Assembly (NCBI RefSeq): GCF_000725805.1
Contig: NZ_JOFT01000043.1
Coordinates: forward strand, 1-50,458
DNA length: 50,458 bases
Origin: Streptomyces xanthophaeus
Lineage (GTDB): Bacteria > Actinomycetota > Actinomycetes > Streptomycetales > Streptomycetaceae
Direction: 5' to 3'
How positions within the stretch are numbered: the first letter of the stretch is position 1; the number at the start of each line of letters is the position of its first letter. The translations under genes and the position numbers were made by a program. The notes under the pieces are model-generated. The model made no database searches and had not been told where the DNA came from. It was given only the letters and a program-made list of their open reading frames with translations. This document shows positions 10,065 through 19,508 of the stretch, piece after piece.

Positions 10065-11003
10065 TCACGGCCGCCCTCCTCGGCCCGCGCGCCCGGCCAC
10101 CGAGGCCAGGTAGTCCTCCAGGGTGCGGGCCGGGGCCCAGCCCTGGGCGCGGGCCCTGGCGGTGTCCAGCACCACCGGGTGCGCCAGCTGGTCCACCGCG
10201 TAGCGGCTGAGGGCAGGTTCGGTACCCGTGAGGCGGGCCAGGGCCTGAGCCGTGAGGGCGGCCGCGGCGGCCAGCGGCAGGGGCAGGTGGCGGACGCGGG
10301 CCCGGACCCCGTGGGCGCGCAGCACCTGCCCGACGGCCTCGTCGCGGCCGTACGGCTCGGCGTCCGCCACGTTGTACGCCCCCGGCGCCCAGCCGGCCGC
10401 CGCGAGGCAGGCGTCGGCGAGGTTCTCCACCGCCGTGAGGCTGAGCCGGACGTCCGGCCCCGGCAGCGCCAGCATCCCGGCCCGGACCCGGGACAGCAGC
10501 CGGGGCAGGAGCTGGGTGTCGCCCGGCCCGTAGACCGCGCGCGGCCGCAGCACCACCGCGCCCGCGGCCAGGGCCAGGGCCTCGCCCCCGGCCTTGGTCC
10601 GCCCGTAGGCGTTGAGGTGGCCGGCCCGCGGGTGGTCCTCGTCCACCAGGCTCCGGTCGAGCCGCGGATCGTAGACGCTCGCGCTGCTCACCCAGACCAC
10701 CGGCCGCCCGGCCGCCGCCGCGAGCAGCCGCCGGGTGCCGTCCACGTTGACCGCGTGCATCTGCGCCCCGGCCCGCGAGCCGGGTGCCGGGTCGCCCACC
10801 GCGGCCGCGCAGTGCACGACGAGGTCCACCCCCGTCAGGTCCGGCGAGCCGTGCGCCGCGTCCCAGGGGCGGTGTTCCCCCACCGGACCCGGCCTGCGGC
10901 CCACGCACACCACGCGGGCCCCCCGCGCGGCGGCCAGGGAGGCCACGTGGCCGCCGCAGAAGCCGCTGGCCCCCGTGACCGCGATGCGGACCCCGGCGCT
11001 CAT
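10065..11003 (-). CDS. NAD(P)-dependent epimerase/dehydratase, 3-beta-HSD type (OleD-like)
   Basis: A 312-residue extended short-chain dehydrogenase. The Rossmann motif TGASGFCGGHV is at 10-20, a Ser triad region at WVSSASVY (104-111) and YxxxK at Y133/K137 (YGRTK). The size and 3-beta-hydroxysteroid-dehydrogenase style resemble OleD, which reduces the beta-keto product of OleA to a beta-hydroxy acid. It is the last gene of the five-gene operon; its ATG overlaps the P450 stop as ATGA. Family membership is firm; the OleD-like role is inferred from the neighbouring OleA-like and OleC-like genes. Confidence 0.8.
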   Translation of the reverse strand: MSAGVRIAVTGASGFCGGHVASLAAARGARVVCVGRRPGPVGEHRPWDAAHGSPDLTGVDLVVHCAAAVGDPAPGSRAGAQMHAVNVDGTRRLLAAAAGRPVVWVSSASVYDPRLDRSLVDEDHPRAGHLNAYGRTKAGGEALALAAGAVVLRPRAVYGPGDTQLLPRLLSRVRAGMLALPGPDVRLSLTAVENLADACLAAAGWAPGAYNVADAEPYGRDEAVGQVLRAHGVRARVRHLPLPLAAAAALTAQALARLTGTEPALSRYAVDQLAHPVVLDTARARAQGWAPARTLEDYLASVAGRAGRGGRP

Positions 11004-12124
11004 GCCGCCGCCCGCACCGTCAGCGAACGCCAGCCGGGCAGGGCGGCCCCCCGGTCCACCCGGGCCCCCGTCACCACCGGCCGGTACGGGGCGAGGGCCG
11101 CCAGGACGTCGGCCAGCTGTACGCGGGCCAGCCGGGCCCCGGGACAGCTGTGCGGCCCCGTACCGAACACCAGGTGCGCCTGCTCCGCTCCGGCGGGCGC
11201 GCGGGCGTCCGGGTCCCGCAGGTGCGCCTCGGCAGCGTGCCGCGCCACCAGCAGCAGCCGGTCGCCGCCGCGCACCGGGCAGCCACCGACGCTCCCGTCC
11301 GCGGCGGCCACCCGGGGCAGCACCGGCGAGGCCGCGGTGACCCGCAGCAACTCCTCGGCCAGCAGCGGCCGCAGCGCCCCGTCGGCGGCCTGGTCCCACA
11401 GGTCCGCGTCGGCGCACCAGGCGACGGCCCGGGGCAGCGCGGCGACCGTCGTGTTCACGGCGGCCACCGCCACCATCGCGGACAGCGCGTCGGCGTCCTG
11501 CGCACCGCCGTCCCCGTCCGGGCCGCCGAGCAGCCGCCGCAGCCGGTCCGCGGCGCGGGCGGCGGCCGCCTCGGCGCGCGGGCGGCGCGGGCCGGGCAGA
11601 TGACTGCGTACGGAGGCGGCCGCGGCCTCGGCGGCCGCCTCCGCGACGGCCCGCGGATCGGCGGGCCGGTCCAGCAGCGCGCACACCACCGACCCGGCGA
11701 GGGTGCGGGCGAGCTCCACCAGGTCCACCTCGGCTCCCCGGTCCAGCGGCGCGAGGCCGCGTACCAGCAACGGCTGCCACACCGCGCGGAGTTCCTCCAC
11801 CCCGGCCGCGCCGAGCCCGCCGGCGAGGGTGCGCCGGTCCGCCCGGTGCCCGGCTCCTTCCTGGTCGAACAGCACCCCGGCCGGTCCCGACAGCGCGGCG
11901 CGCGCGGCGCCGCCCGTCGTGCCGGCCGCCGTACGGTCCAGCGGCAGCCGGGTCAGTGCCTCGCGGTAGGCCTCCGCCCCGTGCACCAGCACGGTCCGGC
12001 CCACCCTGCGTACGGGCCGCCCGCGCGTCGCGGCCAGCAGGGCGAACAGCAGCGGATGGCTGCGCAGGTAGACCCGGCGGTCCCGGCGGCGGGCCCGGTC
12101 CTGCCCGGTGGCGGCGGCGGTCAC
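11000..12124 (-). CDS. Cytochrome P450 of the Ole-like operon
   Basis: A 374-residue, rather short P450. The haem loop FGTGPHSCPG carries the ligand Cys at 327, the K-helix ExxR is E258/R261, and the C-helix HRADR is at 93-97. The I-helix reads AAVNTT (221-226): the usual acidic residue before the Thr pair is Asn224, which may alter oxygen activation. It probably oxidises the operon's lipid product; substrate unknown. The GTG start overlaps the stop of the adenylate-forming enzyme gene (GTGA) and its stop overlaps the reductase start, so it is translationally coupled on both sides. Confidence 0.88.
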   Translation of the reverse strand: MTAAATGQDRARRRDRRVYLRSHPLLFALLAATRGRPVRRVGRTVLVHGAEAYREALTRLPLDRTAAGTTGGAARAALSGPAGVLFDQEGAGHRADRRTLAGGLGAAGVEELRAVWQPLLVRGLAPLDRGAEVDLVELARTLAGSVVCALLDRPADPRAVAEAAAEAAAASVRSHLPGPRRPRAEAAAARAADRLRRLLGGPDGDGGAQDADALSAMVAVAAVNTTVAALPRAVAWCADADLWDQAADGALRPLLAEELLRVTAASPVLPRVAAADGSVGGCPVRGGDRLLLVARHAAEAHLRDPDARAPAGAEQAHLVFGTGPHSCPGARLARVQLADVLAALAPYRPVVTGARVDRGAALPGWRSLTVRAAA

Positions 12125-13602
12125 GGGGTGCCCCCCGGGGCCAGGCGCCGCGCGGCGAGGGCGGCCGTCGCCGCCCGGTCCGGTTTGCGGGAGCGCCCCG
12201 ACAGCGGGATGTCCGCGAACAGCAGTGCGTCGGGACGGGCGGTGCCCATCCTCCGGACGGGCTCCGACAGGGCGGCGCGCAGGGCGCCCTCGGCCTGGCC
12301 GCGGCGCGGCTGCACCACGGCCACCAGCCGTTCGTCGCCCCCGCCCGCCGGGACCCCGACGAGCAGGGCCAGTTCCACGCCCGGTACGTGCAGGGCGGGT
12401 TCGTACAGGCCCGGGTAGATGTTCTCGGCCCGGCGCAGCACCATGTCCTTGCACCGGCCCTCCAGGACGATCCGGCCCGCCGGGTCCAGGCGCGCCCGGT
12501 CGCCCGTACGCACCCACGGGTCGGGGTCCTCCCCGAGGTAGCGGTCGCGGGCGGCGTCCCCGGCGAGCAGCAGCTGGCCGTCCGCGTCGGGCTTGGCGAG
12601 GACGCCCGGCAGCGGGGCTCCGACCAGGTCGCCGGGGCCCTCGAAGGCGGCCTTCTCGCGGGCCTCGACGGCGGCGGCGGGGAACAGTTCGGTGAGCGCG
12701 TACACCCCCCACGCCTGGTCGGCGCCCGCGCTCCGGACCCGTTCCAGCAGGGCGGCGCCGGCCGGGGCGGAGCCCGTCCACACGCGCCCGTGGAAGCGGG
12801 CGCCCGCGCCGAGGGCGTCCCGTAGCTGCGGCGGGGTCAGGTACGTGTCCTGCGGGCGCAGCCGGTGCAGCTGCCGGGCCAGCAGCCGGGGGCTGCGGGC
12901 CGGGAGGGCGACGGGGGCGCCGCCGGTGAGGGCGGGGACGAGCACGAAGAAGGTGCCGCCGAGGACCGGGCGGTCCGGCCGCGCGTCGAACAGGGCGGCG
13001 ACGGTGCCCATCCCGGCGGCCAGGCTCGCCCGGGTGTGCACCACGGCGCGCGGCCGGGAGGTGGTCCCGGAGGTGAAGACGATCACGGCGTCCCCGTCGT
13101 GGTCCCCGTGCACGGGGACCCCCGCCCGGGGCGCCGTCAGGTCCAGGGCGGGCGCGCAGCCCGGCAGCCGGGGCCCGACCGTGGCCACCGGTCCCAGCTC
13201 CGCGAGGTCGGGCAGCGCGAGCCGGGCCCGCCGGGCCAGCGGCCGGGCCCAGCCCGCCACCGCCTGCGCGGCCGCGTCGGCCAGCACCAGCGCGGGCCGG
13301 GCCAGGGCGAGGCGGGCGCGCAGGACGTCGGGCCCCGCGCCCGGGTCGAGCACGGCCCCGCGCAGCCCGAGCCGCCACAGGGCGAGCAGCAGGGCCAGCG
13401 CCCGGGGGCCGGGGCGTACGGCGACGCCTACGGTGTCCCCGGCGCGCAGCCCGCGTGCGTGCAGGGCGGCGGCGAACGCGTCGGCGAGGTCGGTGAGTTC
13501 GCCGCGCGTGGCGCGTAGGCGGGGGGCGCCGCTGCGGGCGGCGGTGAGGACGGCGGGCTGCTCGGGGCGGCTGCGCAGCGCGTGGTCGAGACGGTCGAGC
13601 AT
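12121..13602 (-). CDS. Class I adenylate-forming enzyme (OleC-like ligase)
   Basis: A 493-residue ANL-superfamily enzyme. The phosphate-binding loop is FTSGTTSRPRAVVH (176-189, Arg instead of the usual Lys), the A5-like motif is VYALTE, the A7/A8 region includes DRARLDPAGRIVLEGRCKDMVLRRAENIYP, and the C-terminal catalytic Lys is at about 473 in GRSRKPDR. The KDMVLRRAENIYPG hinge resembles fatty acyl-AMP ligases and OleC beta-lactone synthetases. Possible reactions are activating a fatty acid or closing a beta-hydroxy acid to a beta-lactone; the companion ketosynthase and reductase make the second attractive. Start and stop both overlap neighbours (TGATG and GTGA). Confidence 0.82.
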   Translation of the reverse strand: MLDRLDHALRSRPEQPAVLTAARSGAPRLRATRGELTDLADAFAAALHARGLRAGDTVGVAVRPGPRALALLLALWRLGLRGAVLDPGAGPDVLRARLALARPALVLADAAAQAVAGWARPLARRARLALPDLAELGPVATVGPRLPGCAPALDLTAPRAGVPVHGDHDGDAVIVFTSGTTSRPRAVVHTRASLAAGMGTVAALFDARPDRPVLGGTFFVLVPALTGGAPVALPARSPRLLARQLHRLRPQDTYLTPPQLRDALGAGARFHGRVWTGSAPAGAALLERVRSAGADQAWGVYALTELFPAAAVEAREKAAFEGPGDLVGAPLPGVLAKPDADGQLLLAGDAARDRYLGEDPDPWVRTGDRARLDPAGRIVLEGRCKDMVLRRAENIYPGLYEPALHVPGVELALLVGVPAGGGDERLVAVVQPRRGQAEGALRAALSEPVRRMGTARPDALLFADIPLSGRSRKPDRAATAALAARRLAPGGTP

Positions 13603-14345
13603 CAGCGGGGGTCCGTTCCGTGGCGGCCGCTGCCCTGGTCCAGGTACCAGCGGGCGGTGCCCGCGATCCCGTAGGCCCGCAGGCGCCGCGTCGAGTTCTC
13701 CACGACCATCGCGCGGCAGTGCACGATCCGGTCGGTGTGGCGGCGTACGGCGTTGAGGAAGAGCCGGTCGGTGGGGGAGGGGCGCCGGGGCATGCCTCCG
13801 ACGGCCAGGTACAGCTCGGCGGTGATCGCCATGTTGTTCCCGGCGTGCATGCGGTACGGGGCCCGGTAGCCGTTGCGCCGGGCGTGCTGGGGCCGCAGCC
13901 GTCCGAAGAGCGCGGCGAGGGCGACGAGGGCGCCGAAGCCGGCCCGGCCGAGCGGGCCGTGCTCGTCGCGGCGGGCGGTGATCCGGCCGCAGACCAGCCC
14001 GGGGCGCCGGGTGAGGGCGCTGCGCGCGGCGCGGGTCCAGTCCGGCCGGGGCAGGCAGTCGGCGTCGGTGCGGGCCAGGAGGCCGGCGCCGCGCCCGATG
14101 GCATAGCGGAAGCCGGTGTCCACGGCGGATCCGACGCCCTTCTCGGGCTCCTCGATCACCTCCACGGGGAACGGGGCCTGCGCGGCGAACCGCCGGGCCA
14201 CCGCGCCCGTGCCGTCCCGGGAGGCGTTGTCGACGACCAGCAGGGTGAAGTCCCGGTCCCGCTGCGCGGCGAGGGCGCGCAGGGTGTCCGCGAGGCGGGC
14301 CTCCTCCTCGTGCGCGGGCACGACCACCCACATCCGCTCGCTCAT
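13602..14345 (-). CDS. Family 2 glycosyltransferase of the Ole-like operon
   Basis: A 247-residue GT-A fold enzyme. The N-terminus MWVVVPAHEEEARLADTL is the nucleotide-sugar binding start of GT2, VVDNASRDGTG is the D-containing strand, and ARTDADCLPRPDW gives the DxD metal site. There is no clear transmembrane helix, though the segment near residues 120-150 is hydrophobic. It presumably adds a sugar to the operon's product, an inference from position only. ATG 14345 overlaps the ketosynthase stop (ATGA), and its own stop overlaps the next ATG by one base. Confidence 0.85.
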   Translation of the reverse strand: MSERMWVVVPAHEEEARLADTLRALAAQRDRDFTLLVVDNASRDGTGAVARRFAAQAPFPVEVIEEPEKGVGSAVDTGFRYAIGRGAGLLARTDADCLPRPDWTRAARSALTRRPGLVCGRITARRDEHGPLGRAGFGALVALAALFGRLRPQHARRNGYRAPYRMHAGNNMAITAELYLAVGGMPRRPSPTDRLFLNAVRRHTDRIVHCRAMVVENSTRRLRAYGIAGTARWYLDQGSGRHGTDPR

Positions 14346-15364
14346 GACTTCTCCCAGACCATGGTCATGATGCTGATGCCGCCGCCGAGTCCGACGAACA
14401 GGACCCGTTCGCCCGGGGCCAGTTCCCCGTACACGCGGTCCAGCTGCACCCCGATGCTCGCGCTCGCGATGTTGCCGAGTTCGGGCACGGTCACCACGAG
14501 CTTCTCCTCGGGCACCCCGGTCAGCTCCGCGAACCGCTCCAGGTACGGCACGGTCACCTGGTGGACGAGCACCCTGGCGAAGCCGCCCCAGTCCAGGCCC
14601 GTGCGGTGCAGGGTCCGGTCGATGACGGCGGTGCCCACCTTCTCGAAGACGCCGCGCAGTTCGTGCCCGTCGCCGCGGAACCAGGTGTGCTCGTCCCCGC
14701 GCGGGTGCCGGGAACCGCCGCCCGGTATGCCGCCGACCTCCCAGTGCTCCGAGTGGGTCTCGGTGTCCACGTCGATGATCCCGCCGCGTCCCACTGCCTC
14801 CACGACGACGGCCGCCCCCGCGTCGCCGAAGGTGTAGCCCGCGAAGCCGCTCCGGAACTCGGCGAAGTCGGCCGGATCCTTGCGCACCGCCCGGCTCGGG
14901 GTCTCCCCGGTGACCACCAGGGCCCGGCGGGCGCGTCCGGCCAGGACCATGGAGCGGGCGAGGTCGATCCCGTTGACGAAGCTGTTGCAGGCGTTGGTGA
15001 CGTCCAGGGCGTGGGCCCGCGAACCCAGCTCCGCTTGCACGATGTGCGCGGTGGCGGGTTCGACCATGTCCCGGGAGGCCGAGGCGAAGACCAGCAGGTC
15101 GACGTCGAGCGGGCTCAGTCCGGCGGAGTCCAGGGCCCGGCGGGCCGCGCCCACGGCGAGCGTGGAGGCGTACACCCCCTCGGCCGCGACCCGGCGGGAG
15201 ACGATTCCGGTGGCCTGCTTCAGCAGCGTCGGCGGCAGGGTCAGGCCACTGGTGCGGGCCACCTCCTGCTGGAGGTCCGCGGAGGACAGGACCTGCTCGG
15301 GCAGCAGGCTGCCGACGGCGGTTATCCCGGCGCGCGCCGGCGGGTCACATGGCTGGAAAGGCAT
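14342..15364 (-). CDS. 3-oxoacyl-ACP synthase III-like thiolase (OleA-like)
   Basis: A 340-residue FabH/OleA-type condensing enzyme. The catalytic Cys is C126 in DVTNACNSF, the His is in VLVHQVT and the Asn in LGNIASAS; the C-terminal GLGGGISIM loop is typical. OleA joins two fatty acyl-CoAs head to head; FabH starts fatty acid synthesis. Linkage to an OleC-like ligase and OleD-like reductase, with no other fab genes near, favours the OleA reading. It is the first gene of the operon. ATG 15364 is taken; GTG 15370 is in frame. The upstream region has nested repeats suited to regulation. Confidence 0.82.
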   Translation of the reverse strand: MPFQPCDPPARAGITAVGSLLPEQVLSSADLQQEVARTSGLTLPPTLLKQATGIVSRRVAAEGVYASTLAVGAARRALDSAGLSPLDVDLLVFASASRDMVEPATAHIVQAELGSRAHALDVTNACNSFVNGIDLARSMVLAGRARRALVVTGETPSRAVRKDPADFAEFRSGFAGYTFGDAGAAVVVEAVGRGGIIDVDTETHSEHWEVGGIPGGGSRHPRGDEHTWFRGDGHELRGVFEKVGTAVIDRTLHRTGLDWGGFARVLVHQVTVPYLERFAELTGVPEEKLVVTVPELGNIASASIGVQLDRVYGELAPGERVLFVGLGGGISIMTMVWEKS

Positions 15365-15675: not shown

Positions 15676-17742
15676 ATGACAGAGCTGAACCGTCGCAGGT
15701 TCCTGCAGATCGCCGGCGGCACCGCGGCCGTCGCCATGCTGAACGAGAGCATCGCGCGGGCCGCCGCCATCCCGGCGGCGCAGGGCGGCACCGGAACGAT
15801 CCAGGACATCGAGCACGTCGTCGTCCTCATGCAGGAGAACCGTTCCTTCGACCACTACTTCGGGGCGATGAAGGGCGTGCGCGGCTTCGGTGACCCCCGG
15901 CCCGTGCTCCAGGACAACGGCAAGTCCGTCTTCCACCAGTCCAACGGGACGAAGGACATCCTCCCCTTCAACCCGCAGGTGGAAGACCTCGGGATGCAGT
16001 TCCTCACGGGCCTCAACCACGACTGGGCCGGCGGTCAGCAGGCCTACAACAAGGGCAAGTACGACAAGTGGGTGCCCGCCAAGACGGCCACGACCATGTC
16101 GTACATGACCCGGAACGACATCCCGTTCCACTACGCCCTCGCCGACGCCTTCACCGTGTGCGACGCCTACCACTGCTCCTTCATCGGAGCCACCGACCCC
16201 AACCGCTACTACATGTGGACGGGCTACACGGGCAACGACGGCACCGGTGGCGGCCCGGTCCTCGGCAACCAGGAGCTGGGCTACGGCTGGAAGACCTACC
16301 CGGAGCGGCTGGAATCGGCCGGGGTCTCCTGGAAGGTCTACCAGGACATCGGCGACGGCCTGAACGCGGCGGGCCACTGGGGCTGGATCAACGACGCCTT
16401 CCGCGGCAACTACGGCGACAACTCACTGCTGTACTTCAACACGTACCGCAACGCCCAGCCCGGCAGCCCCCTGTACGAGAAGGCCCGCACGGGCACGAAC
16501 GCCGCCGCGGGCGAGGGCTACTTCGACCGGCTGCGCGCCGACGTGGTGAACGGGACCCTCCCGCAGGTGTCCTGGATCACCGCCCCCGAGGCCTTCAGCG
16601 AGCACTCCAACTGGCCGACGAACTTCGGCGCCTGGTACATCTCTAAGGTCCTCGACGCGCTGACCGCGAACCCGGACGTGTGGGCGAAGACCGCCCTGTT
16701 CATCACCTACGACGAGAACGACGGCTTCTTCGACCACGTGGTCCCGCCGTACCCGCCCGCCTCCTCCGCCTGGGGCCTGTCCACGGCCGACGTCAAGGGC
16801 GACCTGTACGCGGGCGGCGTCTCCGGCTACGCGGCCGGCCCGTACGGCCTCGGCCCCCGCGTCCCCATGATCGTGGTCTCCCCGTGGAGCAAGGGCGGCT
16901 ACGTCTGCTCCGAGACCTTCGACCACACCTCGGTGATCCGCTTCATGGAGAAGCGCTTCGGGGTGCAGGAGCCCAACATCTCGCCGTGGCGCCGAGCCGT
17001 CTGCGGTGACCTGACCTCGGCCTTCGACTTCACCCGGGCCGACGCGGCGCCCGCCGCGCTGCCCTCCACGGCCGGATACGTGCCGCCGGACAAGAACCGC
17101 CACCCGTCCTACTATCCGACCGTGCCGGCCACGGGCACCCTCCCGAAGCAGGAGGCGGGCTCCAAGCCCACCCGGGCCCTGGGCTACCACCCGTACGTGG
17201 ACGGCAAGGCCACCGTCTCCACCGGCAAGTTCACCCTGACCTTCGCCAGCGGCCCCACCTTGGGCGCCCACTTCCACAGCACCTCCGGCAACCGCACGGA
17301 CGGTCCCTGGCCCTACACCGTCGAGGCGGGCAAGACCCTCTCGGACACCTGGAGCACCAGCAGCTCCACCGGCAACCAGATCGACCTCAGCGTCTGGGGC
17401 CCGAACGGGTTCCTGCGCACCTGGAAGGGCCCGGCGAAGAAGGCCGGCCCCGAGGTCACCGCCCGCCACGCGGCGGCCACCGGCAACCTGACGCTCAGCC
17501 TGACCAACTCCGGTGCGGCCGCGGTCAACCTCACGGTGACCAACGCCTACGGCGGCGCGGCCCAGACCTTCAAGGTCAACCCCGGCGCCACGGTGACCCA
17601 CACGGTCGACCTGCGCACGACAGGCCGCTGGTACGACGTCAAGGTCGTCTCCGACGCCGACGCCACCTTCCTGCGCCGCTTCGCCGGCCACGTGGAGACG
17701 GGCGCCCCGGGCGTCTCCGACCCCGCGATCAAGACCGTCTGA
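15676..17742 (+). CDS. Phosphocholine-specific phospholipase C, Tat-secreted
   Basis: A 688-residue exported enzyme. The N-terminus NRRRFLQIAGG is a twin-arginine signal ending near the AAA motif at about 35. The phosphoesterase domain (about 45-450) has the family signature HVVVLMQENRSFDHYFG and metal-site segments TYDENDGFFDHV and GPRVPMIVVSPWS. Residues about 500-688 form two beta-rich DUF756 repeats, the standard C-terminus of bacterial PLC (PlcH/PlcN group). It hydrolyses phosphatidylcholine or related lipids outside the cell, releasing phosphocholine and diacylglycerol. ATG 15676 keeps the Tat motif near the start; AGAGG lies about ten bases upstream. Confidence 0.93.
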   Translation: MTELNRRRFLQIAGGTAAVAMLNESIARAAAIPAAQGGTGTIQDIEHVVVLMQENRSFDHYFGAMKGVRGFGDPRPVLQDNGKSVFHQSNGTKDILPFNPQVEDLGMQFLTGLNHDWAGGQQAYNKGKYDKWVPAKTATTMSYMTRNDIPFHYALADAFTVCDAYHCSFIGATDPNRYYMWTGYTGNDGTGGGPVLGNQELGYGWKTYPERLESAGVSWKVYQDIGDGLNAAGHWGWINDAFRGNYGDNSLLYFNTYRNAQPGSPLYEKARTGTNAAAGEGYFDRLRADVVNGTLPQVSWITAPEAFSEHSNWPTNFGAWYISKVLDALTANPDVWAKTALFITYDENDGFFDHVVPPYPPASSAWGLSTADVKGDLYAGGVSGYAAGPYGLGPRVPMIVVSPWSKGGYVCSETFDHTSVIRFMEKRFGVQEPNISPWRRAVCGDLTSAFDFTRADAAPAALPSTAGYVPPDKNRHPSYYPTVPATGTLPKQEAGSKPTRALGYHPYVDGKATVSTGKFTLTFASGPTLGAHFHSTSGNRTDGPWPYTVEAGKTLSDTWSTSSSTGNQIDLSVWGPNGFLRTWKGPAKKAGPEVTARHAAATGNLTLSLTNSGAAAVNLTVTNAYGGAAQTFKVNPGATVTHTVDLRTTGRWYDVKVVSDADATFLRRFAGHVETGAPGVSDPAIKTV

Positions 17743-17784
17743 CCGCCCGAACGGGTGATCCCGCCCGCTTCTCCCGCCCGGGGG

Positions 17785-17802
17785 GTTAACGCTTGCGTTA
17801 AC
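17785..17802. promoter_or_regulatory. Palindromic operator of the HigBA toxin-antitoxin operon
   Basis: GTTAACGC-TT-GCGTTAAC is a perfect 8-bp inverted repeat with a 2-nt centre, ending nine bases before the toxin GTG. It overlaps a possible -10 (TAACTT, 17799-17804). Such symmetry fits the HTH antitoxin binding as a dimer to repress its own operon. Confidence 0.75.
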
Positions 17803-17811
17803 TTCCCGGGC

Positions 17812-18189
17812 GTGGCTCAATGGGAAGTAATCCTCGTGGGCGAGGTGGCGGAGTGGTTCGATGCGCTGGCCGAGACGGACTGGGACAGCGCCGAACAGGT
17901 GGAAGACGCGGTGGACGCGCTCGCGATGTTCGGGCCCACGCTCGGACGCCCGCTCGTCGACCGCATCAAGGGTGCGGAGCAGCACCACATGAAGGAACTC
18001 CGGCCGGGATCCTCGGGTGGCAGTGAGATCCGGATCCTGTTCGCATTCGATCCGGTTCGCCGCGCCGTGCTGCTCGTTGCGGGGGACAAGGCCGGGAACT
18101 GGCAGCGATGGTACGAAGTGAACATCCCGCTTGCCGAGAAGCGGTACGCGGCTCACGTCAGTGAGCTGGACACCAGGGAGTACGAATGA
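17812..18189 (+). CDS. higB: RelE/ParE-superfamily toxin (HigB-like)
   Basis: A 125-residue toxin of the HigB/Gp49 branch. Conserved features are the N-terminal WEVILV strand, the helix EWFDAL, GPTLGRPLVDRIKG, MKELRPGSSGGSEIRILFAFD and VLLVAGDKAGNW. These proteins are small ribonucleases that cut mRNA on the ribosome or inhibit replication. GTG 17812 matches the usual start of relatives and has no ribosome site, suggesting a leaderless message. The toxin precedes the antitoxin, the reverse of most TA systems but normal for HigBA. ATGA overlap couples it to higA. Confidence 0.9.
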   Translation: MAQWEVILVGEVAEWFDALAETDWDSAEQVEDAVDALAMFGPTLGRPLVDRIKGAEQHHMKELRPGSSGGSEIRILFAFDPVRRAVLLVAGDKAGNWQRWYEVNIPLAEKRYAAHVSELDTREYE

Positions 18190-18524
18190 GCGGTGTCGGT
18201 TGGGAGGAGGCCAAGCGTCAGGTGCGCGAGCGCCGGGTGGCTGCCGGGCTGCCGGTGCGGTCTCCGGCGGAGAAGCAGGCCGCGATGGACCGGCTCATGG
18301 CCGAGGTGCGGGCGTACAGGCTTGCCGAGATCCGGCAGGAACAGGCGCTCACCCAGAAGGACGTGGCCGACACGATGGGGGTGTCCGCCCCCCGGGTGTC
18401 GGCCATCGAGAACGGTGAGACCGACCGCACGGAGGTCGCGACCCTGCGCTCCTATGTGGAGGCGCTCGGCGGACGCCTGCGTGTGGTGGCCGACTTCGGC
18501 GACACCGAGTACACCGTGGCCTGA
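18186..18524 (+). CDS. higA: XRE-family antitoxin (HigA-like)
   Basis: A 112-residue protein. A helix-turn-helix is at about residues 55-78 (LTQKDVADTMGVSAPRVSAIENG). The C-terminal LGGRLRVVADFGD is typical of HigA-type antitoxins that shield the toxin and bind DNA. The ATG overlaps the toxin stop (ATGA). Together with the palindrome at 17785-17802 this forms a self-regulated TA module. The surroundings show no mobility genes. Confidence 0.92.
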   Translation: MSGVGWEEAKRQVRERRVAAGLPVRSPAEKQAAMDRLMAEVRAYRLAEIRQEQALTQKDVADTMGVSAPRVSAIENGETDRTEVATLRSYVEALGGRLRVVADFGDTEYTVA

Positions 18525-19427: not shown

Positions 19428-19435
19428 ACCTACAG

Positions 19436-19508
19436 GGTGAGTGACGGGACTTGAACCCGCGGCCACCTGGACCACAACCAGGTGCTCTACCAACTGAGCT
19501 ACACCCAC
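19436..19508 (-). tRNA. tRNA-His (anticodon GTG)
   Basis: A full cloverleaf reads on the minus strand. The acceptor stem is GTGGGTG/CACTCAC with one G-T pair; the D-arm is GCTC...GAGC; the anticodon stem ACCTGG/CCAGGT holds loop TTGTGGT with anticodon GTG; the T-arm contains GGTTCAAGT. An encoded G at -1 (19509) faces C73, the hallmark of histidine tRNAs. CCA is not encoded. The strong terminator lies directly downstream. Confidence 0.97.

Follow-up and report, generated by a model that had tools for sequence, protein, structure and literature searches.

An operon with OleA- and OleD-like enzymes, an AMP-forming ligase, a P450 and a glycosyltransferase in Streptomyces xanthophaeus: a candidate route to an oxidised, glycosylated acyl lipid

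OleA-type pathways give olefins or drug-like beta-lactones such as lipstatin. What, then, would be made by a widespread relative of these pathways that has no gene for OleB and carries a glycosyltransferase and a cytochrome P450? This question is raised by five genes on the minus strand (15364-10065) of contig NZ_JOFT01000043.1 of Streptomyces xanthophaeus (assembly GCF_000725805.1), which was analysed as a whole stretch of 50,458 nucleotides, termed the window. With a probability of about 0.6, the genes make up an operon for lipid biosynthesis, found in Streptomycetaceae and Micromonosporaceae, that stands alone and is translationally coupled; its product would be an acyl lipid of the alpha-alkyl beta-hydroxy type, both oxidised and glycosylated.

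In the proposed pathway, the OleA-type enzyme would join two acyl-CoAs in a non-decarboxylative condensation, and a short-chain dehydrogenase/reductase (SDR) would reduce the resulting 2-alkyl-3-keto acid to the 2-alkyl-3-hydroxy acid. The ligase would adenylate the carboxylate, the P450 would oxidise a chain, and the glycosyltransferase GT2a, together with a second enzyme (GT2b) where present, would add sugar; the product could take the form of a beta-lactone, a free acid or an ester. We infer these chemical steps, their substrates and order, and the fate of the acyl-adenylate from what is observed directly, namely gene content, order, overlaps, conservation, catalytic residues and the lack of an OleB gene in the operon.

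A conserved unit of five or six genes

The genes of the operon, in order, are as follows.

14342..15364, minus strand: OleA-type ketosynthase (KS), 340 aa, ATG at 15364; Glu102, Cys126, His268, Asn298
13602..14345, minus strand: GT2 glycosyltransferase GT2a, 247 aa; DAD at 94-96, TD (PSPTDR, 192-193) where GT2b has ED
12121..13602, minus strand: AMP-forming ligase, 493 aa; N-domain nearest OleC, C-subdomain acyl-CoA-synthetase-like (GRCKDM hinge, GRSRKPDR)
11000..12124, minus strand: cytochrome P450, 374 aa, GTG start; haem Cys327, ExxR at 258-261, I-helix AAVNTT
10065..11003, minus strand: OleD-like extended SDR, 312 aa; GASGFCG, SSAS, YGRTK

From KS to SDR, the genes overlap by 4, 1, 4 and 4 nt, in agreement with the five coupled genes and 1-4 nt overlaps of the initial annotation, and it is from these overlaps that we infer translational coupling. 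The Pfam matches, gene by gene, are ACP_syn_III(_C), Glycos_transf_2, AMP-binding, p450 and Epimerase, which bears out the oxidation and sugar-transfer genes (p450, Glycos_transf_2) proposed earlier. The third-position GC of the KS, GT2, P450 and SDR frames is 0.93-0.97.

Genome contigs scanned with the window KS gave 162 relatives, and the best 80 of the 162 were kept. The five genes were mapped on these 80 loci by tblastn, gene intactness being no criterion for a complete locus, and the five-gene order sought in other genomes was recovered complete in 66 of them. In 13 of the 14 incomplete loci, the contig stops inside the operon or right next to it. Among the relatives, KS and GT2 overlap by exactly 4 nt at 75 of 79 junctions, GT2 and ligase by 1 nt at 57 of 78, and P450 and SDR by 4 nt at 47 of 66; the ligase/P450 junction is variable, with a 4 nt overlap in 9 of 31 direct junctions. 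Because the order is kept in most relatives and the overlaps are themselves conserved, the five-gene set is a true unit and not a product of chance. One locus on a long contig (L017, 10001-13237) is left with the KS and a split SDR, and its GT2, ligase and P450 have no tblastn match.

The conserved unit is stand-alone and consists of five to six genes. With five anchor loci tested, no flanking gene recurs in more than 8 of the 58 other full-flank loci, and a larger cluster was rejected on this ground. Antisense frames across the P450 gene score 18 and 24 of 58 and are taken as shadows of the P450. By titles and printed lineages, the hosts are Streptomycetaceae and Micromonosporaceae, and one listed protein is named Saccharothrix. 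In the window's genus, 15 of the 150 genomes sampled, that of the window included, match the KS at E <= 1e-90; in the order, 24 of 147 genomes match it at E <= 1e-60.

The absence of OleB, noted in the initial annotation, is upheld beyond the operon. A search of the window's genome with the L129 OleB gives no match better than 91.7 bits (35% identity), and this lies on another contig, whereas the OleB proteins of the ole-operon genomes G273, G055 and G012 score 300, 154 and 142 bits, each beside its OleC. In genome G239, which has a KS and a ligase that fall together with the presumed LstA and LstC, the OleB match is 113 bits and is likewise on another contig.

The architecture is not only common but published, having been in print since 2020 as a prediction, and the initial annotation, which knew of no described pathway with this exact gene set, is wrong on this point. 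In its passages on Actinoplanes atraurantiacus, PMC7064751 (mBio 2020) reports OleA, a glycosyltransferase, OleC, a P450 and OleD in a genome without oleB, and predicts condensation, reduction, hydroxylation, glycosylation and lactone closure to a hydroxylated, glycosylated beta-lactone. The gene types, their order (from the paper's domain list, the sequence not being aligned here), the absence of oleB and the general product idea are the same as for the window. The ligase is called OleC there, and the passages describing that region mention neither an optional second GT2 nor the C-terminal motifs of the ligase; the refinements made here are an apparently hybrid ligase and that optional second GT2. 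Within the open-access literature, with most subscription papers and all preprints outside scope, PMC7064751 was the only paper found to describe this gene set, and the available text of PMC7158056 contains no mention of Streptomyces, Actinoplanes or glycosyl.

The ligase and the fate of the acyl chain

The ligase was initially annotated as OleC-like, which stands for its N-domain; its C-terminal subdomain is acyl-CoA-synthetase-like. The best NCBIfam match of the window ligase is PRK09274, which contains OleC (100.3 bits, cut-off 478), and the NCBIfam OleC model matches residues 5-328 only, far under its cut-off. The OleC of L117 passes PRK09274 at 563.6 bits, yet falls under the 850-900 cut-offs of both OleC models, and these cut-offs were set aside as criteria because that OleC itself misses them. 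For the ligase of L061, a fatty-acid-CoA ligase model comes first and PRK09274 seventh, and for that of L041 both models are level. A hidden Markov model (HMM) of the family N-domain scores a median of 41.7 bits on 12 OleC/LstC proteins versus 17.6 on 31 other ligases, and full-length BLAST is divided, the best match of family ligases being OleC/LstC in 11 of 16 cases and another ligase in 5. In the ligase tree, the family is not nested among 28 other ligases; the trees are unrooted with three groups, and place the family outside the sampled FadD set without indicating which group is its sister. Given this position and the N-domain nearer OleC, a plain FadD ligase was rejected, and the initial concern that the enzyme might group with plain acyl-CoA ligases survives for the C-terminal subdomain.

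That subdomain points the other way. The family C-domain HMM scores a median of 13.2 bits on the 12 OleC/LstC proteins versus 19.5 on the 31 other ligases, and the closest matches in the PDB are FadD13 and other acyl-CoA synthetases. In all 67 family ligases the hinge reads GRxKDM, and GRSxKPDR follows near the C-terminus. Measured against the reference loci fetched in this analysis, from which the OleC criteria were defined (RHN[AS]K and a hinge without Lys-Asp), the C-terminal motif RHN[AS]K is found in 10 of 12 OleC/LstC references, none of 31 other ligases and none of the 67 family members. A Lys-Asp hinge is found in none of the 12 references, and a [GD]RxKD hinge is present in 19 of the 31 other ligases. 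The P-loop reads SGT(T/A)xxPRAVVH in 67 of 67 family ligases, and most comparison rows have the usual SGTTGxPKG.

On these motifs, an outright OleC assignment was set aside. The two references without RHN[AS]K are the presumed LstC and L124 (RHQSK instead), and because the presumed LstC of a lipstatin-type cluster also lacks it, the motif is no proof either way. Beta-lactone-forming ligases exist outside the OleC clade. The ligase is thus a hybrid, or else a branch next to OleC in which an ordinary hinge was retained. Its sequence is no guide to beta-lactone formation, and a lactone is not implied, because the C-terminal subdomain resembles plain acyl-CoA synthetases. To call the ligase OleC, and hence the product a beta-lactone, is not safe; the motifs frame a clear alternative between lactone and acyl transfer.

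A product that keeps the lactone, made by a true OleC-like beta-lactone synthetase, is a tentative prospect at somewhat under even odds. It would be a hydroxylated, glycosylated lipstatin-type compound, as in the part of PMC7064751 that offers the published analogy, and would suit an operon without OleB in a genome without an OleB-grade match. The N-domain HMM and the BLAST matches also favour it, and the presumed LstC indicates that RHN[AS]K is not essential for a lactone. These points are opposed by the absence of that motif from the whole family, the invariant Lys-Asp hinge, the preference of the C-domain HMM for other ligases and the partial coverage by the OleC model.

Just as plausible a product is an alpha-alkyl beta-hydroxy acyl glycolipid. 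Here, the ligase would be an acyl-CoA (or acyl-transfer) synthetase that either supplies the KS with an acyl substrate or activates the completed hydroxy acid so that it can be passed to a sugar or another nucleophile, yielding a mycolate-like glycolipid without lactone. This too is tentative: the hinge, shared with many other ligases, the C-terminal GRSxKPDR and the FadD13-like PDB matches agree with it, but the altered P-loop and the OleC-like N-domain do not. An extension of this idea, rather unlikely as a whole, is a non-lactone OleA branch in which the ligase would activate an OleA/OleD-made alpha-alkyl beta-hydroxy acid for transfer and not for ring closure. Mycolate-like glycolipids carrying one or two sugars would then arise in non-mycolate actinomycetes, through a pathway not related to Pks13.

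Ketosynthase, reductase, glycosyltransferases and P450

The identification of the KS as an OleA-like condensing enzyme is sustained by its active site. All 80 family rows keep Cys126, His268, Asn298 and the OleA-type Glu102. The OleA Glu (EP motif) is present in 9 of 9 OleA/LstA references and, at the aligned place, in 0 of 34 other ketosynthases III (KSIII); in OleA, this catalytic Glu (EPxT) comes from the dimer partner. Similarly, the NAC motif around the Cys occurs in 18 of 18 family members, 9 of 9 OleA/LstA and 0 of 34 other KSIII. A GET motif was dropped as an OleA marker, a GE-type triplet being found in 15 of the 34 other KSIII. Because both Glu and NAC are present, we take the KS as an OleA-type condensing enzyme, mainly on these two features.

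The KS tree suggested earlier gives a mixed picture. Family members form one clade (100/99), and a branch of 99/95 sets this clade and OleA/LstA apart from 34 KSIII; the tree is unrooted with three groups, and it places the family outside the sampled FabH set without indicating which group is sister. By an approximately unbiased (AU) test, a topology that groups the family with the KSIII rows other than L006 and L007, which takes in most FabH-type rows, is not rejected (p 0.19). In NCBIfam, the OleA model NF006720 gives the window KS 166.8 bits (cut-off 285), below FabH at 176.4. The presumed LstA is also under the NF006720 cut-off at 123.5 bits, but there FabH scores lower still (114.7); the OleA of L129 passes at 423.7 bits. 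A FabH-like starter enzyme, with the operon making a short polyketide-like or other acyl product, would suit the marginally better FabH score and the AU result, but is improbable given the aligned Glu and NAC, and a conserved unit without an acyl carrier protein (ACP) or polyketide synthase gene.

OleD NF042422 is the best NCBIfam model of the SDR (88.6 bits, cut-off 580), in line with the OleD-like reductase annotated initially. SSAS(V/I)Y is found in 58 of 59 family SDRs and YxxxK in 59 of 59. In the tree, the branch that sets the SDR and OleD/LstD apart from seven further SDRs of the genome has weak support (73/84).

The initial annotation missed a frequent second GT2 gene. GT2b lies between ligase and P450 in 35 of 66 complete loci, and the window is without it. 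It is mostly 45-56% identical to GT2a. Of its 36 junctions with the ligase gene, 24 show a 4 nt overlap, and it overlaps the P450 gene at 31 of 36. On the KS tree (66 loci plus the window), presence and absence of GT2b require 14 changes, at least 6 of them on well-supported branches. Moreover, short GT2b-like remnants of 19-46 aa persist in 3 of 25 plainly five-gene loci, and for this reason repeated loss of GT2b appears likely. The optional gene provides natural with/without pairs for matching sugars to genes. The DAD aspartates of GT2a are present in 75 of 75 sequences, with an invariant TD in place of ED; GT2b has the ED motif in 28 of 28.

At a contig end, a locus from another family of the same taxonomic order, L179 (7836-10921), has a KS 42% identical to that of the window. 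Its KS and GT2 genes overlap by 4 nt, and the GT2 is 51% identical to GT2a (182 bits) and 50% to GT2b (216 bits), and is thus nearer GT2b. The pair lies beside a P450 (30% identity; I-helix AGTETA) on the opposite strand. L179 is possibly an older form of the system. This one locus suggests that the KS-GT2 pair is an old core, and therefore that the sugar is probably not an afterthought.

The haem Cys, ExxR, the C-helix H..R pair and I-helix Thr225 of the P450 are invariant in 60 of 60 sequences, and the predicted model has a pLDDT (predicted local distance difference test) of 87. Immediately before Thr225, 52 of the 60 sequences have Asn, 6 have Thr, 1 has Ser and 1 has Ala, and none has an acidic residue; this position is acidic in most P450s. 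P450-derived activators of glycosyltransferases usually lack the haem Cys and serve GT1 enzymes. That the window P450 is such a helper and no oxidase is very unlikely: its best NCBIfam match is TIGR04515 (37 bits, cut-off 343) and the acid position is non-acidic throughout, but the intact haem site weakens the idea, as does the L061 P450, which has no TIGR04515 match at E 0.001.

Several observations weigh against an oxidised, glycosylated lipid made through an OleA-type KS. The AU test and the higher FabH score leave the KS assignment less firm, the ligase falls short of OleC-type cut-offs and motifs, and GT2a lacks the ED seen in GT2b. The flank comparison with five anchors found no sugar-donor, ACP or transporter gene conserved alongside the operon. 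No product of the family was found in the open-access literature surveyed. As to activity, PMC7064751 reports that the purified A. atraurantiacus OleA, of which there was little soluble protein, was unreactive with the tested acyl-CoAs. In favour of the scheme, the same paper reports that this OleA, a presumed relative encoded in a region with this gene set, was active on p-nitrophenyl hexanoate in cells, an ester activity without a Claisen product.

Related operons and neighbouring genes

The A-C-D order of the operon is that of all 9 ole or lst-like reference loci (the L131 ligase was placed in a separate search). The oleABCD operons of the actinobacterial reference loci L128-L135 share this order and OleA/OleD-type enzymes with the window. 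Unlike them, the window operon has no OleB, has a GT2 between A and C and a P450 between C and D, and belongs to a family whose ligases do not carry the C-terminal motifs found in the OleC references. Among these loci, L130 has an LstA-like KS and no OleB match within its stretch. The corresponding KS-ligase-SDR operon (L119/L130, genome G239), the KS and ligase of which group with the presumed LstA and LstC, is a possible lipstatin- or nocardiolactone-type cluster.

The lst cluster of Streptomyces toxytricini (L116), identified by layout and presumed to carry the lst genes whose names are applied to it, has KS, ligase and SDR in the same order as the window. It has no GT2 or P450 query match over 40 bits, and its ligase groups with OleC, apart from the window family. 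An lst cluster also has a second KS-like gene and a nonribosomal peptide synthetase, of which only matching frames were seen in L116. The genome of S. toxytricini JCM 4421 contains both this lipstatin-type cluster and the operon described here (L068), and the strain offers a chance to compare the two pathways within one organism.

Other features of the window are minor. An ARAGORN tRNA-Arg call at 13501-13581 (plus strand), antisense within the ligase gene, is probably spurious, because Rfam finds no tRNA there; a tRNA-His at 19435-19508 (minus strand) is confirmed. A phospholipase C gene (15676-17742) adjoins a putative toxin-antitoxin pair. The region of a Gp49-like protein (17755-18524, plus strand) overlaps a small protein judged by eye to be helix-turn-helix-like (18186-18524), and the two genes are likely a toxin-antitoxin pair.

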